Of a DNA stretch of 64,000 nucleotides, positions 14,883-62,565 are shown piece by piece. Under the pieces are notes generated by a model that saw only the letters and a list, made by a program, of their open reading frames with translations, did not search any database and was not told where the DNA came from. The DNA is from Myxococcota bacterium (GTDB lineage Bacteria; Myxococcota_A; Polyangia; Polyangiales; Houyiibacteriaceae). The number at the start of each line of letters is the position of its first letter. Within the stretch, counting starts at the first letter, position 1. The position numbers and the translations under genes are program-made. The stretch lies in NCBI GenBank assembly GCA_028284955.1, contig JANQQS010000005.1, positions 65,946 through 129,945 on the forward strand, written 5' to 3'.

Positions 14883-16499
14883 CTACGCGTACGTCCACAC
14901 GAGCCAAGCTGAAAGCGCAAGCAATGCGCCAGCTTGCACGCGAAACTGAGAATACCGAAACTGAGAATACCGAAACTGAAAAAAACACGGTCGCGGCGCG
15001 GCGAGGCTCGGTTTCTCCTCAGGAATCGCTCGCGACGCTTCAGTCGACCGCGCGGGAGTCGCGAGCGCTCGCGCCGGTGGAGGCTCGGTCGCCAAGCTGA
15101 CCGCAGCAATCACCACACACGTCAATGCAAAGAAGATTCCGCCAAGAATCGTCTCGTGAATTTGGGGCCACCGCAAGAAGGTCCGCGAAACAAACGTCGC
15201 GACCGATATCGCCTGCCCGAACACCAACCCACAGAGTGCCCCGCGGGCGTTCGCGCGAGGCCAAAAGATACCCAGCACAAACAATGCGACGACAGGAGGA
15301 AACGCAAACGACAGCGCGGTTTGAAGATACGCAAAAATGTTCGCCGAGCGCGCCACCACGGGTACCCACACCACGCTGATCACCATGAACATCACGGTCA
15401 CCACACGCCCGATTCTCGTCAGCGCGGCGTCGCTGGTATAGGGACGAAGCTTCTTGACAAAATCCATGGTGACGAGGGTCGACGCAGAATTCAGCGTCGA
15501 GTCTATGCTGGACATGATCGCAGCCACCAGCGTCGCCAACACAAGCCCCCGAAGCCCGGTTGGCAAGATCTCAGTCACCAGGGTTGGAAACGCAAGGTCT
15601 GGGCGCGCCAAGTCGGGATAGAGATGGCGCGCAATGATGCCAGGAAAGATCATGGTAAAGAGCACCGACAGCTTGAGCAATCCATTGAGCAGCGCGCCCT
15701 TGCGCGCATGGTCCACATCCCGCGCGGCAAGCACGCGCTGCACCACAAACTGGTTGGTGGTCCAGAAGTACAAGTTGATGATGGGAATGCCCGTCAGCGC
15801 GCCGAGCCACGGCATGGTCGGATCGTCGCTCGGCTGAAAGAGCCGCAGCTTGGACGGCGGTGTGGCTTCGACCACCGCCTCCCACGAGCCCGCCGCCTCG
15901 AGAGCGAACAACGCAAGCACGCTCGTTCCAACAATCAAGACGACGGACTGAAACGTATCGGTATACACCACCGCCGAGAGCCCCCCTGCGGCGGTATAGA
16001 GCCCGGCAATCAATGCAAGCGTCGTGCTGGATAACCAAAGCGGAACGGATGGAAAAAAGAGCTGGATGACCAACGCACCCGCGTACAGCGTGGCCGCGGT
16101 ATCGATGAGAATGTTGCCGGCAATAGTCAGCGCCGAAAAATAGTAGCGACAGACGGGGGAAAAGCGCTGCTCGAGATATTCCGGAATGGTGTAGAGTCTG
16201 GATTCTAGGTAGCGCGGCACAAAAAACGCCGCGAACACCACCATCACTACGGCGACCATCCACTCGTAGTTGGCGACGGAAATACCCGAATCATAGGCCG
16301 CGCCAGCCAACCCGACGAGCGTAGTGCTCGACACGTTCGACGCGAAGAGCGAAAGCCCGACCACAGGCCAGCCCAGGCGCCGGCTCGCGAGAAAATATTC
16401 TTCGGGGTTGTTCTGGCGCCTGGCAAAGCGAACACCAATCACCAACACGACCGCGAGATACAGACCGACCAGCCCTAGGTCGATAGGATGCAGGTTCAA
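14883..16499 (-). CDS. Sodium:solute symporter (SSS family, SGLT-like)
   Basis: The protein has 538 residues with about 13-14 TM helices. SSS family marks are GLSLFASNVSSTTLVGLAG (Na/substrate site in TM1-2), RLYTIPEYLEQRFSP and AAIMSSIDSTLNSASTLVTM, whose serines form the Na2 site in SGLT-type transporters. The family imports sugars, inositol or other solutes with Na+. The tail carries a 15-base tandem repeat giving QFRYSQFRYSQFR. The likely start is TTG, since no ATG or GTG precedes the first TM helix. It lies just after a repetitive 31-codon leader frame. The sugar-like substrate is an inference. Confidence 0.92.
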   Translation of the reverse strand: MNLHPIDLGLVGLYLAVVLVIGVRFARRQNNPEEYFLASRRLGWPVVGLSLFASNVSSTTLVGLAGAAYDSGISVANYEWMVAVVMVVFAAFFVPRYLESRLYTIPEYLEQRFSPVCRYYFSALTIAGNILIDTAATLYAGALVIQLFFPSVPLWLSSTTLALIAGLYTAAGGLSAVVYTDTFQSVVLIVGTSVLALFALEAAGSWEAVVEATPPSKLRLFQPSDDPTMPWLGALTGIPIINLYFWTTNQFVVQRVLAARDVDHARKGALLNGLLKLSVLFTMIFPGIIARHLYPDLARPDLAFPTLVTEILPTGLRGLVLATLVAAIMSSIDSTLNSASTLVTMDFVKKLRPYTSDAALTRIGRVVTVMFMVISVVWVPVVARSANIFAYLQTALSFAFPPVVALFVLGIFWPRANARGALCGLVFGQAISVATFVSRTFLRWPQIHETILGGIFFALTCVVIAAVSLATEPPPARALATPARSTEASRAIPEEKPSLAAPRPCFFQFRYSQFRYSQFRVQAGALLALSAWLVWTYA

Positions 16500-53402: not shown

Positions 53403-53933
53403 CTATTCGATGATGAAGTAGACCACGGGAATGGCGAAGATGCCCAGAAGTAGCCCACAGAAAAGCGTCAAGAAGAAGTGTTTTACGGTAGTTCCTAGCG
53501 AGAGACGACCTTCGGAGCGGCGTAGCAAAAGCCACGCGCTCGCGGTGGCAACGGCCACACAAATACTCACCACGATGCCCGACGCTTGCACCCAGCAATC
53601 AGGGCAATGGGCAAACGCCGTGCGCGGAATGAGCCAGAGTGCCGCGACGTAGACACCAGCCACGGCGATCACGCCGCTGGTACCTTTGGAGGCGATATCA
53701 CCTTGGCTACCGAACGTCGTGCCTTCCAGCGCAACGGGCTGACCATTGATCTTGACGGCCTTGGAGTAGCCCTTGGGTGAAAGACCGCTGCGGCCAACGT
53801 TGGGCAGCGGAGTCGGCACAAAGGGCGCCGGAGGCCCCGGCATCTTGCACACATTCGGCGTCGTCGCCGCCGCTACGCCGTTCGAGCCTTTGGTAACTGG
53901 AGTCTTCGGGCCGTTGATGGTGACCTTGCCCAT
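53403..53933 (-). CDS. PAAR-like (DUF4150) protein with a hydrophobic C-terminal domain
   Basis: The protein has 176 residues. Residues 1-85 are almost identical to the head of the protein at 57053 (VTINGPKTPVTKGSNGVAAA, PFVPTPLPNVGRSGLSP, VKINGQPVALEGTTFGSQGD), the DUF4150/PAAR-like fold that caps type VI secretion spikes and loads effectors. The tail differs: three TM-like helices (VIAVAGVYVAALWLIP, GIVVSICVAVATASAWLLL, HFFLTLFCGLLLGIFAIPVVYF). It could be a membrane-acting effector or a leftover module; an immunity gene is not obvious next to it. No T6SS structural genes are in the window. Confidence 0.82.
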   Translation of the reverse strand: MGKVTINGPKTPVTKGSNGVAAATTPNVCKMPGPPAPFVPTPLPNVGRSGLSPKGYSKAVKINGQPVALEGTTFGSQGDIASKGTSGVIAVAGVYVAALWLIPRTAFAHCPDCWVQASGIVVSICVAVATASAWLLLRRSEGRLSLGTTVKHFFLTLFCGLLLGIFAIPVVYFIIE

Positions 53934-53960
53934 GATGCGGGGCTTATCGGTCGGAAGCGC

Positions 53961-54026
53961 GGAGAGTTGCGTGCGAAATCAGTCTTCTCAGGTCCGGGAA
54001 ATTTCTTTCCCCGTCCCCGTTCTTTC
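53961..54026 (+). repeat. Module-flanking direct repeat, copy 2
   Basis: Nearly identical to 58081-58137 (GAGAGTTGCGTGCGAAATCA, GTCTTCTCAGGTCCGGGAAA). Lies just upstream of the PAAR-like gene start. Confidence 0.85.
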
Positions 54027-54043
54027 CGTCCCCGTTCTTTCCC

Positions 54044-57052: not shown

Positions 57053-58045
57053 CTAAATTTGAATTACTTGGAGCTTACCAGGAGGCATACCCAACCCTCC
57101 GGCAAGTTTCCTGATTTGCTGCTCTGCTTTGTCATGACCACCTGGAATCTTGTAGATCACACCCATGTCAGCATTTCGAGCGAGCATCACATTGCGCTTC
57201 ATCTGTCTTCTATTGCGGCCGGTCTCATCCTCGCTCTTTGCTGGATAGAAATCCGCTCCGCTCTTGGCTTCAACCGCATGCATGGTGCCGCTTCGATCCT
57301 GACCGACATGATCGATTTCGGCTCCCATAGGCGCTCCGCAGTGTTTGCAAGAATGCGTCACCTTGTGGTCATTCCCAGTCGACAAACAACTGCGCGACTC
57401 GCCGTGGGCGCGTTTCATCTCGCCTTCGGCCCGCAAGATCTCCGGCTCATTATGTTTCGCCGCCGCGTGCTCGTGGCGACCGCCAGGGCTCCGGTCACGA
57501 GCAAGCTGGTTTCTCCGATCTTTGAACTCTTCATCCGTCGGCGGACAATACGGCTCCCCTCCCTCTTCATGCCCAGGACGTGGATCCGCCTGGGACGCAG
57601 TCCCGTATCCGGGCTCCTGCACGATGCCCATCATCGTCGCCGCGTTCGGCGGGCTACCTCCGGGCCCGCAGTTGTTGAGCATCGGGTCGCCTAGCAAGTG
57701 CACCCGCTTGCCTTCGATTTTGACGTTCATCGAACCGGGACCGATGAACTTCGTGATGCCATGCGCCGCGGAAGACACGATCCCGCCGCCAGTACCTTTA
57801 GAGGCGACATCACCTTGGCTACCGAATGTCGCGCCTTCTAGCGCAACGGGCTGACCATTGATCTTGACGGTCTTGGAGTAGCCCTCGGGTGAAAGACCGC
57901 TGCGGCCAACATTGGGCAGCGGAGTCGGCACAAAAGGCGCGGGAGGCCCCGGCATCTTGCACACGTTCGGCGTCGTCGCCGCCGCTACACCATTCGAGCC
58001 TCTAGTAACCGGAGTTTTCGGGCCGTTGATGGTGACCTTGCCCAT
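57053..58045 (-). CDS. PAAR-like (DUF4150) effector with C-terminal PD-(D/E)XK nuclease domain
   Basis: The protein has 330 residues. The DUF4150/PAAR-like head covers about residues 1-130 (VTINGPKTPVTRGSNGVAAA to VKIEGKRVHLLGDPML, CGPGGSPPN). A charged linker follows. The C-terminal toxin domain (about 225-330) has a small Cys/His patch (HSCKHCGAPMGAEIDHVG), then MHAVEAKSGADFYP, which gives a D...ExK core, and RNRRQMKRNVMLARNADMGVIY, as in restriction-endonuclease-fold toxins. It is probably delivered by a type VI system encoded elsewhere and degrades nucleic acid in competitors. The immunity candidate follows after 13 bases. Confidence 0.85.
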   Translation of the reverse strand: MGKVTINGPKTPVTRGSNGVAAATTPNVCKMPGPPAPFVPTPLPNVGRSGLSPEGYSKTVKINGQPVALEGATFGSQGDVASKGTGGGIVSSAAHGITKFIGPGSMNVKIEGKRVHLLGDPMLNNCGPGGSPPNAATMMGIVQEPGYGTASQADPRPGHEEGGEPYCPPTDEEFKDRRNQLARDRSPGGRHEHAAAKHNEPEILRAEGEMKRAHGESRSCLSTGNDHKVTHSCKHCGAPMGAEIDHVGQDRSGTMHAVEAKSGADFYPAKSEDETGRNRRQMKRNVMLARNADMGVIYKIPGGHDKAEQQIRKLAGGLGMPPGKLQVIQI

Positions 58046-58080
58046 GACGCGGGGCTTATCGGTTGGAGGTGCGGAGAGTT

Positions 58081-58137
58081 GAGAGTTGCGTGCGAAATCA
58101 GTCTTCTCAGGTCCGGGAAATTTCTTTCCCCGCCCCT
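58081..58137 (+). repeat. Module-flanking direct repeat, copy 3
   Basis: Almost identical to 53961-54026. With the shared heads it extends the duplicated block to about 57791-58137, matching 53679-54026. Confidence 0.85.
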
Positions 58138-58405
58138 CTCGTCCCCGCTCACACGATGAGTAGAACGGTAACGAAGAGCTTCGGGCTCCGAATAGCGATT
58201 AGGCCTATCGCGTGCCGAACAACGACCGTGCGCTAAGCGGAGCAACGAATGGGATCGTCAACCACTCCTCCGACGCATGAAACCCCTTGTCACTATGTGT
58301 CGCGCCGAGTCCACTGTGGTCACGCCCAGACCCGCAACGAGTCGGGACCGTGATCGCATCCAACTCACCGAAATCACAAGGGGTTCGTCACATCCGCTTG
58401 GTGCG

Positions 58406-58450
58406 CTCACAACCCGAAGGTCGTCGGTTCAAATCCGGCCCCCGCAACCA
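58406..58450 (+). other. tRNA-fMet 3-prime fragment (attachment-site-like)
   Basis: From the anticodon loop (CTCACAACC, where initiator tRNA has CTCATAACC) through CCGAAGG, the T arm GGTTCAAATCC and CCCCGCAACCA, this matches the 3-prime half of initiator tRNA. No 5-prime half is present within 80 bases, so it is not a gene. The rest of 58138-58720 holds no credible coding frame; an inverted pair (AACCCCTTGT near 58279, ACAAGGGGTT near 58375) is its only other feature. Confidence 0.8.
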
Positions 58451-58555
58451 TGGTCAAGGGCGGACCTATTCGGGCCCACCCTTTTTCCTTTTGGCCGGAT
58501 TTCGTTGTTTATTGTGCGTTCGCTGACGCGAACGCGCGGCCCCCGCTGGTGTTGT

Positions 58556-58583
58556 TGGTTGCGGGGGCCGGATTTGAACCGAC
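58556..58583 (-). other. Inverted copy of the tRNA-fMet 3-prime end
   Basis: The minus strand reads a perfect 28-base copy of 58423-58450 (GTCGGTTCAAATCCGGCCCC, then CGCAACCA). No anticodon or D arm accompanies it. Together with 58406-58450 it marks the left side of the islet carrying the AAA/TOPRIM gene. Confidence 0.85.
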
Positions 58584-58720
58584 TTGTTTTGGTGCGCATC
58601 GGATTTGGGTGAGGACAGTCCGCACCTATCGAACTTATTGTTCTCAAGGTCCACGCCCAGTCGCTCTGGTAGAGTTCGACTTCTGGGCCGGGTGCCGGCC
58701 CGCCTTCGGGGGAGCGTCGA

Positions 58721-60394
58721 ATGTTGGAGCAAGAGGTGGTCAGGCGGTGGCCGATTCCCCTGACCGAGGGCGGCAACAAAAATATTGAGATCAAAAACAG
58801 CGACCGGCTATTCATCGTCGGGGCAAATGGCACGGGGAAGTCGGCCCTGATTCAACACGGGCTGGAGAGACTCGGAAAACCGATCCGCCGGATGTCGGCT
58901 CATCGTCAGAACTGGATGGTGTCCAGCCACATTGAGCTTAACTCTCGTTCTCGGCGCGAGATGGAGACCCGCCTCCACCAGAGAGATGTTCAGCACGAGG
59001 GTCGCTGGAAGGATGACCAAGCTGGCCAGCGGCTCGCAGCAATTCTGTTCGACCTGGTCGCAGCAGAGAATGAACGGTCTCGTCGCGTCACCGAGCTCAT
59101 CGACGCCAAGAAAGCCGATGCGGCAGTAAAGCAAGCCGCCGATACCCCGTCGCCATTCTTGAAAATCAACGACCTGCTGGCAGCGGGGAACTTTAGTGTC
59201 AGGCTCCGGGCAAAGAGGGGGGAAGAGATACTGGCTGAACATCGGGACGGGCAGCTTTTCGGCATGGCAAAGCTCTCGGATGGGGAAAGGAACGCCGCGA
59301 TCCTGGGTGCAACGGTGCTCACCGTGGATCCCGGCACACTTCTTCTGATTGACGAGCCTGAGCGCCACCTGCACCGCTCCATCATCGAGCCATTTCTCAC
59401 AGCGCTCTTTGACTGTCGCCCCGACTGTCCGTTCATCGTTTCCACACATGAGTTGTCGCTTCCTGTGGCGGCGAAGGACGCAAGGGTTCTGCTTCCCCGA
59501 GGCTGCGAGTGGTCGGGTGAGAGTGTGCATTCTTGGACGTTGGATGTGTTAACGGCAGGGGCCGAACTACCGGACGACCTTCGGCACTCAATCCTCGGCT
59601 CTAGGCGCAAGATCCTCTTCGTGGAAGGCGAGCACAGCAGCCTGGACTTGCCCGTCTACGAAGCCCTCTTTAACGACGTGTCCGTGGTTCCGAAGGGTGG
59701 TTGTTCCGAGGTGATCCGAGCGGTGAAAGGGCTGCGGTCCGCTGAGAGCCTGCACTGGGTCGAAGCCACGGGCCTGATTGATCGGGATGACCGAGAAGAG
59801 AAGGAACTGTCCTCTCTGCGTGATGGTGGCATCCACGGGCTCAACGTGCATTCGGTTGAGTCCCTCTACTTCTCCAAGCCAATGAGGGTTGCCGTAGCGA
59901 AGCGGCAGGCTGAAACTTACGATGTCGATCCTGACGATATGCTGAAGCAGGCCGAGGAAGCGGCGATGAAGGAGCTAGGCCAGCTCGAGACAAAGAAGCA
60001 CCTCAGCGCCCGCAGGATCGAGCGCAAAGTGAGAGATGCCGTGATGTCACAGATCCCTGGCTGCAAGGAGATCAAGGGTGGCACAGGCGCTCCGATCACG
60101 ATCCAGGTTGACTCGGGGCTGCCGGAAGAAATCGACCGCTACGAGGCGCTGCTTCAGGCCAAGGATTTCGACGGCCTCATTGCCCGCTACCCGGTAAGGG
60201 AGACGAACGCGCTGACCAACCTCGCGGCCAAGCTGAAGTTCAGGCCCAAAGAGAATTACGAGCAGGCAGCGCGGGCGCAGCTTGCCAAAGATGATGAGCT
60301 AGTAGCTGAGTTGCGGAAGCTGCTCGGCACTCTCACCGAGGCGCTGACGGGACAGTCGAAAGCCGAGGTCGATTCTTCTCCGTCCCCTCCGTAG
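58721..60394 (+). CDS. OLD-like AAA ATPase with DUF4435/TOPRIM-type domain, possible defence protein
   Basis: The protein has 557 residues. GGAG lies 6 bases before the ATG. The ATPase half has Walker A GANGTGKSALIQHGL (about residue 35), signature-like KLSDGERNAAILGA and Walker B TLLLIDEPERHLH, with an SMC/ABC-like insertion between them. The C-terminal half begins KILFVEGEHSSLDLPVYEAL and contains ATGLIDRDDREEKE, which fits the Glu and DxD of TOPRIM-type DUF4435 domains. AAA-TOPRIM proteins of the OLD group often act in phage defence as nucleases. Frequent GAG and CTG codons differ from neighbouring genes, which favour GAA and CTC; with the flanking tRNA fragments this suggests acquisition. 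Confidence 0.87.
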   Translation: MLEQEVVRRWPIPLTEGGNKNIEIKNSDRLFIVGANGTGKSALIQHGLERLGKPIRRMSAHRQNWMVSSHIELNSRSRREMETRLHQRDVQHEGRWKDDQAGQRLAAILFDLVAAENERSRRVTELIDAKKADAAVKQAADTPSPFLKINDLLAAGNFSVRLRAKRGEEILAEHRDGQLFGMAKLSDGERNAAILGATVLTVDPGTLLLIDEPERHLHRSIIEPFLTALFDCRPDCPFIVSTHELSLPVAAKDARVLLPRGCEWSGESVHSWTLDVLTAGAELPDDLRHSILGSRRKILFVEGEHSSLDLPVYEALFNDVSVVPKGGCSEVIRAVKGLRSAESLHWVEATGLIDRDDREEKELSSLRDGGIHGLNVHSVESLYFSKPMRVAVAKRQAETYDVDPDDMLKQAEEAAMKELGQLETKKHLSARRIERKVRDAVMSQIPGCKEIKGGTGAPITIQVDSGLPEEIDRYEALLQAKDFDGLIARYPVRETNALTNLAAKLKFRPKENYEQAARAQLAKDDELVAELRKLLGTLTEALTGQSKAEVDSSPSPP

Positions 60395-60479
60395 TACCCC
60401 GATGGCCTACGCATACGAGCCAATCTCCGTCTGAAAATCCTTCCTCAAGAACACCGAATCCCAGACTCCACCCCGGCCA

Positions 60480-60694
60480 TCACCTTGGCTCTGAGCACCA
60501 GGGCCGAAGCAGTTTTGGAAGATGGTCGGACGTCCCCCCTGGCTCAACTTTGCCGATGTGGAGACGAGCGGATACGGCTCCTCCTTCGCTCACCACCAGG
60601 CCCGAAGGGCAAGAAGCCGATCCGCATGCTGCAATGAAGACGGAGGTCATACTCAATGCAAGCGATGTGGTTGGTCGCTGGTCGTTGCGTTCCA
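60480..60694 (-). pseudogene. Truncated third copy of the Cys-rich lipoprotein gene
   Basis: The frame begins MERNDQRPTTSLALSMTSV and has AACGSASCPSGLVVSEGG, closely matching the signal and start of the protein at 60700. It then leaves homology at about 60575 and ends 30 codons later. The break coincides with the right side of the AAA-gene islet, which may have truncated it. The 85 bases before it, back to 60395, show nothing else. Confidence 0.72.
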
Positions 60695-60699
60695 TTCTA

Positions 60700-61629
60700 T
60701 CAAAACGGATTGCAGGTTTCCGGGTCGCCATCACAAGCTGCCCCGTTTCGGCAATCATTTGATCCAGCACATTCATACGTGCAGGCAAAGGTCGATCCCA
60801 TTTGCCGACACACTCCATCATCGAGCCCGGGGACACCACAGTCATCGGTGGCCGTATCCTCGGCGCATGCGTCGCGAAAACTGAGAATCGCTTCGCACGT
60901 TGTGTCTGCCTCAGCGATCACACAATAGAGCGCCTCAACTCCACCCAAACTCGTGCGCATGCGTTGAGCAAACTGCCGCGGGGGACAATTGGCGCTAGGA
61001 TCGTCAGTGGCTGTTTGATGGCTTGCAAGGTCGAGCATGCAGTAGTTACCTCGGCTTGCTCCGTTGAATTCGAGTGGCACACAGCGCCGAACCCCCACTT
61101 CATCGGTGGTTATGCACTCTTCGTCGGACACGCATGGCTGACAAAAACCGAGCGTTCCCTGGCACTCAAACGTGCTCAGATTGCACATCCGGTTTCCGAT
61201 AGGCCGACCGACTTCGATGGGAGGACAAGAGGTCTCTTGAGTCGCTTCGGTACATTCGACACAAACCCCCGTCCCGGTCTCACATACCGGCGTATCCGAA
61301 AACCGAGCGCACTGGTCGTCATCCATACACGGTGAGCACGTGTTGCTCTCCGTATTGCATCTCGGTGCCGCAGGGTCCGTACATTGCGTGTCTTGCACGC
61401 ATCCCACGCAGCGGTTGCTCGTCTCATCGCACACCGGCGTATCCCCGCTGCAGCCTCCGCACGGGCCCGCGTCCGCTTCCCCATCAGGTCGTGCATCAGC
61501 GCCTGCATCGAGCGCGAGGCACCACCCGCCTTCGCTCGCCACGAAGCCTGAAGGACACGAGGCAGATCCGCATGCGGCGGCGAAGAGGAAGATCATACTC
61601 AGAGCGAGCAACGTGATCGATTGAGGCAT
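60700..61629 (-). CDS. Cys-rich lipoprotein, tandem copy 2
   Basis: The protein has 309 residues. Lipobox AAAC. After CPSGFVASEGG and an Asp/Ala/Gly linker, Cys-rich units follow (CGGCSGDTPVCDETSNRC, CTDPAAPRCNTESNTC, CMDDDQCARFSDTPVC), then a segment with CQPCVSDEEC, FAQRMRTSLGGVEALYCVI and a Cys-rich C-terminus ending CDGDPETCNPF. About 36 Cys imply an extracellular disulfide-rich protein. The start lies 9 bases after the stop of its upstream paralog, so they are co-transcribed. No enzymatic motif. Confidence 0.88.
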   Translation of the reverse strand: MPQSITLLALSMIFLFAAACGSASCPSGFVASEGGWCLALDAGADARPDGEADAGPCGGCSGDTPVCDETSNRCVGCVQDTQCTDPAAPRCNTESNTCSPCMDDDQCARFSDTPVCETGTGVCVECTEATQETSCPPIEVGRPIGNRMCNLSTFECQGTLGFCQPCVSDEECITTDEVGVRRCVPLEFNGASRGNYCMLDLASHQTATDDPSANCPPRQFAQRMRTSLGGVEALYCVIAEADTTCEAILSFRDACAEDTATDDCGVPGLDDGVCRQMGSTFACTYECAGSNDCRNGAACDGDPETCNPF

Positions 61630-61638
61630 CCTAATTCG

Positions 61639-62565
61639 TCAAAACGGATTGCAGGTTCTCGGTGCATTGTCGCAAGCTACCCCATCCGGGCAATCACTTG
61701 GTCCAGCGCATTCATAAGTACAGGCAAATCCACGCCCCATTTGCCGACACACCCCATCATCAAGCCCGGAGGCGCCACAGTCCTCGGCGACGGTATCCTC
61801 GGCGCATACCGATCCAAAACTGAGAACTGCTTCACAAGTTGTATTCGCTTCTCGAACCACGCAATAGAGCGCCTCGACTCCACCCAAACTCGTGCGCATG
61901 CGTTGAGCAAACTGTTGCGGAGGACAATTGGCGCTGGGATCGTCCAGGGCTGCTCGATGGCTTTCAAGATCGAGCATGCAGTAGTTGTCTCGTGGCATTC
62001 CGTCGAACTCGAGAGGAATACAACGAAACGTGCCAACTTGGTCGTTGCTCAGGCACTCCTCATCCGATACGCACCGCTGGCAGAAGCCGAGCGTACCCTC
62101 GCACTCAAACGTCTCCACATTGCACACCCGGTTTACGGCAGGCCTGTCGTTTTCGATGGGGGGACATGCCGCTTCTTGAGTCGCTTCGGTACATTCGACG
62201 CACACTCCGGTGCCCGTCTCGCACACCGGCGTATCCGAAAACCGAGCGCACTGGTCGTCATCCATGCAAGGGGAGCAAGTGTTGCTCTCGGTGTTGCACC
62301 TTGGCGCCGCAGGGTCCGTACATTGCGTATCTTGCAAACACCCGACGCATCGGTTGGTTGCTTCGTCGCAAACGGGCGTATCCCCGCTGCATCCTCCGCA
62401 AGGGCCTGCGTCCGCTTGCCCATCAGTCTGCGCATCAGCGCCAGCATCGAGCGCGAGGCACGCTGGGTCGTTAGGTTTGGATTCGCAGAAAGGGACGCTT
62501 TCGGTGGGGCAAGCGGAGAGGAGGACAACGGGAACGAGAAAGGCGAAGGCGGGTTTAATGGTCAT
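61639..62565 (-). CDS. Cys-rich lipoprotein, tandem copy 1
   Basis: The protein has 308 residues. Lipobox LSAC. The signal and first 30 residues differ from its downstream paralog, but from LALDAGAD onward the two are about 80 percent identical, including CDEATNRCVGCLQDTQC and FAQRMRTSLGGVEALYCVV. AGAG lies upstream of the ATG. It is the first gene of the pair. The 248 bases upstream to 62813 hold no gene I can support. Confidence 0.88.
   Translation of the reverse strand: MTIKPAFAFLVPVVLLSACPTESVPFCESKPNDPACLALDAGADAQTDGQADAGPCGGCSGDTPVCDEATNRCVGCLQDTQCTDPAAPRCNTESNTCSPCMDDDQCARFSDTPVCETGTGVCVECTEATQEAACPPIENDRPAVNRVCNVETFECEGTLGFCQRCVSDEECLSNDQVGTFRCIPLEFDGMPRDNYCMLDLESHRAALDDPSANCPPQQFAQRMRTSLGGVEALYCVVREANTTCEAVLSFGSVCAEDTVAEDCGASGLDDGVCRQMGRGFACTYECAGPSDCPDGVACDNAPRTCNPF

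Follow-up and report, generated by a model that had tools for sequence, protein, structure and literature searches.

A probable single-gene PARIS-type system beside a relic tRNA-fMet attachment region in a Myxococcota genome

The window, i.e., the whole 64,000-nt stretch of DNA that was analysed, probably holds an acquired single-gene PARIS defence system (58721–60394) side by side with a relic tRNA-fMet attachment region (58405–58583). The fMet half in this region is an integration scar; its link with the AriAB gene is one of adjacency only, and whether an fMet-targeting element delivered AriAB is undecided. The features of the locus are listed in Table 1.

Table 1. Features of the AriAB locus and the neighbouring attachment region (window positions)
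Feature	Position	Strand	Basis or likeness
Relic attachment core: 3' half of tRNA-fMet, from the anticodon loop to CCA	58406..58450	+	98% to fMet nt 32-77
Terminator-like flank 3' of the fMet half	58451..58501	+	hairpin in centroid fold
Short inverted T-arm copy GGCCGGATTT	58493..58502	-	sequence
Hairpin with 10-bp stem, between both fMet copies	58514..58537	.	fold
fMet 3' end from the T arm to CCA (28 nt), repeated without mismatch in inverted orientation	58556..58583	-	
AriAB, predicted PARIS-type fusion protein: N-terminal ABC/AAA ATPase joined to a C-terminal DUF4435 Toprim nuclease	58721..60394	+	PADLOC, Pfam
Left copy of tandem duplication, Cys-rich lipoprotein genes	60580..61522	-	79% to adjacent 61526-62461

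The AriAB open reading frame is intact and encodes 557 amino acids. The protein matches AAA_21 with 52.4 bits and, on the same chain (residues 298–408), DUF4435 with 42.6 bits, the Pfam cut-off being 27 in both cases. Its best PADLOC model is AriAB (PDLC02982, E 1.1e-56, residues 9–438), and the AriB model is matched as well (E 3e-8). AriAB was aligned with eight relatives, seven from plasmids and one from a different genome in the phylum; the residues of what we take to be the Walker A, signature, Walker B and H-loop motifs are invariant in all nine sequences, and so are the Toprim residues E302, D309, D354, D356 and E380, the first of which would be the equivalent of AriB E26. Because these ATPase and Toprim residues are kept, the gene looks intact. 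The AriA structures 8ux9 and 8v45 were matched at E 1e-6, among many ABC ATPases, and a profile of the Toprim part gave no match to the solved AriB chains; a single-sequence structure prediction was unusable (mean pLDDT 38.8). The original prediction had described an OLD-like AAA/TOPRIM gene: an intact reading frame with AAA and Toprim-type parts is indeed present, but membership of the OLD family was rejected, as no OLD-type Toprim Pfam model was matched at E 0.001 or better, the Toprim part is of the DUF4435/AriB type and the AriAB model (E 1e-56) fits better. The further proposal of a single-gene defence candidate is borne out by the AriAB model and by both Pfam domains exceeding their cut-off. 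Judged from its sequence, the gene is probably a single-gene PARIS system in one chain, which by analogy would be active in defence.

AriAB is rare among relatives. It was found in one of the 57 near genomes, namely its own, and in two of 377 genomes of the phylum, its own counted; horizontal acquisition is the simplest reading of this patchy distribution and probably the correct one, in agreement with the earlier expectation that the gene is not inherited vertically in the family. The nearest relative found is encoded on an Acidiphilium plasmid (35% identity), and relatives occur in 51 of 72,556 plasmid records. In a Kocuria plasmid the relative adjoins genes for a TIR-domain protein and for an N-6 DNA methylase, a typical defence neighbourhood. 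Viral contigs yielded no relative of the protein, and phage records gave two weak matches only, one of them an Oenococcus phage. Codon use had also been offered as a sign of foreign origin, and this argument was rejected: AriAB ranks an unremarkable 17th of the 50 window ORFs in its departure from window usage, and its GC3 of 0.71, against 0.58–0.64 in the immediate neighbours, is within the span of values seen elsewhere in the window. Its G+C content is 0.593 (neighbours, 0.56–0.59), and its codons fit bulk genes slightly better than local ones, by 7 nats over 542 codons. The most notable oddity of composition is an over-use of AGG for arginine (10 codons).

As had been described, the fMet half breaks in the anticodon loop, namely at the loop's 5' edge. 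It extends from there to CCA and spans 45 nt with one mismatch, or 46 nt if position 58405 is counted. The inverted copy reported 105 bases downstream proved exact, with 28 nt at 58423–58450 fully complementary to 58556–58583 across a 105-nt gap and zero matches expected from 100 shuffles. Folding of 58406–58583 gives a single long hairpin (-99.2 kcal/mol, z -8.0); since this hairpin arises from the inverted pair, it is not evidence of function. A consensus terminator scan made no terminator call in the terminator-like flank. Over 54 nt this flank is 78% identical to L227, where it resembles the sequence flanking a 29-nt fMet fragment of relative G016. ARAGORN detected no tRNA in the window, and an Rfam search of 58000–60900 returned a single chance-level match under the gathering score. 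Immediately left of the fMet half lies an imperfect inverted repeat, AACCCCTTGT / ACAAGGGGTT, at 58276–58386 and about 90 nt apart.

Integration at tRNA-fMet is frequent in this lineage, as indicated by the recurrent start of its partial copies, the adjoining integrases or integrase stubs and a shared arm. An fMet gene query matched in 52 of the 57 near genomes. After removal of 8 copies starting at nt 22 or before, 56 of 64 partial rows were tallied, and some weak rows among them (starts at 45–50, or E ~1e-5) may represent tRNA genes other than fMet; 36 of these 56 start at nt 32–34, and 41 start at nt 28–34, over 22 genomes including our own. Beside the full fMet genes of G017 and G040, a convergent tyrosine integrase ends about 30 bp from the tRNA. 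Partial or diverged copies of such integrases stand beside fMet in further relatives, six fMet fragments adjoin C-terminal integrase stubs comprising only the last 50–68 residues, and in G001 a serine recombinase adjoins fMet. A right arm of about 65 bp is common to many fragments of relatives, with divergent sequence beyond it. The claim that the window half is an integration footprint is supported by the common start and by the tyrosine integrase or serine recombinase adjoining fMet in relatives. Its core boundary is that of the relatives' fragments and its arms are not; the arms beside the core bear no likeness to any element arms seen in relatives. Viral contigs gave no match to two attachment-site patterns. 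A comparison of contig C211 with the ORFs from 14 loci of relatives, mainly fMet loci, gave one weak match, and the window is therefore not recognisably the fMet neighbourhood of the relatives.

In relatives of genus g2 (loci L197–L223), orphan modules consist of a left arm of about 30 nt, the 45-nt fMet core and a right arm of about 65 bp; they are scattered through the genomes, with DNA diverging beyond the arms (for example, L199 at 96–140 and 16379–16424), and six of them retain the integrase C-terminal stub only. These modules are possibly integrase-less cassettes mobilised in trans. At L230:3639–11955 (G001), fMet is adjoined by the serine recombinase instead of a tyrosine integrase, an fMet half lies 8.2 kb off, and two recombinase classes may share fMet as one target. 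At L208:3661–5158 (G021), a Fic-domain gene matching the SoFic defence model (E 2.7e-26) lies directly upstream of the fMet half.

Inverted T-arm copies are found downstream of fMet 3' ends elsewhere as well. Among 59 distinct fMet sites with enough sequence, an inverted match of at least 10 nt within 200 nt downstream was present at 5, the window counted (28, 18, 12, 10 and 10 nt), and at none in shuffled sequence or in the upstream control, where sites with less than 150 nt upstream were scored as none. Matches in direct orientation are commoner (9/59), and inverted copies longer than 12 nt are few (2/59). The GGCCGGATTT-type motif recurs at L182, L227, L208 and L203; the G021 half at L208 is followed 41 nt downstream by an inverted 18-nt copy, and in G019 and G021 the two copies, one of them inverted, flank a palindrome resembling a bidirectional terminator. 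Across 183 genomes of the order, the short-gap inverted pattern occurs in two and its control in none, and the long-gap pattern in one, our own; the long-gap control likewise hit one of the 183. None of the relatives with inverted T-arm copies carries AriAB, and because the copies recur in such relatives, we attribute the inverted copy to the DNA that follows fMet 3' ends. A limited literature search, not specific to inverted fMet copies, found no paper on them.

The borders proposed for the islet were not supported. Both tRNA fragments lie left of AriAB and thus do not bound it; no second fMet core lies to the right of the gene, and the contig carries no integrase. Fragments of fMet occur in 21 other genomes without AriAB, and tRNA fragments present without the gene had been named beforehand as a result that would refute the islet. 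On the right, the truncation of a lipoprotein gene at 60580 is real, yet as an islet edge it was rejected: in the alignment, both the break (60580) and the end (62461) correspond to one gene position, about codon 35, and 60580 is therefore the joint of a tandem duplication (60580–61522 / 61526–62461, 79% identity), silent on insertion. The duplication made a chimeric Cys-rich lipoprotein gene at 60580–62565, with its signal-peptide part from one gene and its Cys-rich part from the other. To the left, two PAAR-like toxin-associated genes (53403–53933 and 57053–58045) share a 90% identical 370-bp stretch covering their N-terminal and upstream parts (53666–54037 and 57778–58150) and differ in their 3' parts. 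As the likeness of the left flank to the upstream PAAR-gene copy ends at 58150 and the right side is a duplication joint, neither border is fixed. A DNA search of the 57 genomes with the left (58046–58405) and right (60380–60700) flanks matched our own genome and no other, so there is no empty site to compare.

The assembly comprises 223 contigs, is 96.55% complete and gives 43 tRNA-model matches. The intact initiator tRNA-fMet gene suggested as a landmark was found neither among these 43 matches nor on the contig, although a draft assembly may miss one; two Met-anticodon tRNA genes are present and both differ from fMet. With no intact fMet gene found, attL is not locatable. A search for the tyrosine integrase was unsuccessful on the window's contig, which holds no phage-type integrase; the only two PF00589 matches of the genome fall on other contigs, and PF07508 had no match in the genome. 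Since an intact fMet gene and a nearby integrase are both missing, the element that left the scar is gone or incomplete in this genome.

These observations can be set against other explanations of the locus. That a small integrative islet (58406–60580) entered the fMet site with AriAB as its sole cargo, its integrase lost or acting in trans, seems rather unlikely to us. AriAB, the only gene in that place, starts 271 bp past the core, its patchy distribution suits a mobile cargo, integrase-less attachment modules exist in relatives, and the Fic-domain defence candidate of G021 adjoins an fMet fragment; but the second core to the right is absent and the right edge is a duplication joint. Moreover, the element of a tRNA island lies 5' of the displaced 3' half, so that the element would be expected left of the fMet half, opposite AriAB, and eight of ten proteins near fMet sites of relatives had no PADLOC match. 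A further reading, which we regard as improbable, holds that fMet feeds a cassette system in this family. Small integrase-less modules, each a conserved attachment site of arm, 45-nt fMet core and arm of about 65 bp, would be moved in trans, and the palindromic unit of fMet, terminator and inverted T arm in the window would be a functional site variant, serving as a foldable end or inversion site, by which single defence genes like AriAB would be captured and inverted.

Two further accounts do without an islet. Decay of a duplicated tRNA gene might account for the fMet half, and decay of another copy for the inverted 28-mer, without any integrase; tandem fMet genes in G004, G034 and G043 and copies of 28–29 nt covering just the T arm to CCA in G016 and G025 would fit, but the sharp common start of the partial copies and the adjoining integrases or stubs are unexpected from random decay, and ARAGORN called no tRNA in the window, which makes this highly improbable. 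It is hardly credible that the contig is a chimera of an fMet-linked repeat and some unrelated part of the draft genome: the fragmented assembly, the missing fMet gene and the contigs of several relatives that end at fMet halves would allow it, but the site lies within a contig of 135.7 kb, with 11.3 kb between it and the contig end, and G+C is equal on both sides (0.58–0.60).

Under the preferred reading, an acquired AriAB beside a relic attachment region, the N-terminal ABC ATPase would, as in the PARIS family, assemble and sense a phage trigger, which in the studied PARIS case is an anti-restriction protein such as Ocr. Sensing would free the C-terminal Toprim nuclease to cleave the anticodon stem-loop of a host tRNA, and growth would stop. 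At 58405–58583, the integrase of fMet-targeting elements would have exchanged strands within the anticodon loop, leaving the displaced 3' half behind, and the inverted 28-nt copy would belong to the DNA downstream of the attachment site, not to another islet border.

According to the available text of PMC9122126, the PARIS authors detected the system with AAA_15 or AAA_21 together with DUF4435, at scores of 27 and 27, and described single-gene fusions of both domains; the available text of PMC12409363 presents AriA as a hexameric ABC ATPase holding AriB, a two-metal Toprim tRNase that cuts tRNA-Lys. The window protein resembles the AriAB fusions in joining AAA_21 and the DUF4435 Toprim domain on one chain, over the authors' scores as given there (PMC9122126). 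Its family shares with PARIS a mobile, patchy distribution, whereas its gene stands at an fMet scar and not at a P4 or P2 hotspot. As in OLD-family nucleases, an ABC ATPase is followed by a Toprim domain, but here the latter matches DUF4435/AriB. AriAB thus belongs to a family already known, to which it is a diverged addition from a poorly sampled lineage; it is only 35% identical to its nearest relative found. A fused protein this diverged is useful for asking how the nuclease is released and which tRNA is cut.

The locus also reveals heavy use of tRNA-fMet as an integration hotspot in the lineage, with repeated attachment modules whose mobilisation is testable in genomes retaining the integrase. 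Tycheposons and other integrase-poor tRNA elements are reportedly small cassettes that sit at tRNA genes and are accompanied by partial copies of the tRNA; the modules of genus g2 resemble them, while the window site is without the conserved arms of such modules. The site differs from Islander-type islands in having no regenerated tRNA or integrase and in carrying an inverted partial copy; with such tRNA-targeted genomic islands it shares a displaced tRNA 3' fragment that starts in the anticodon loop.
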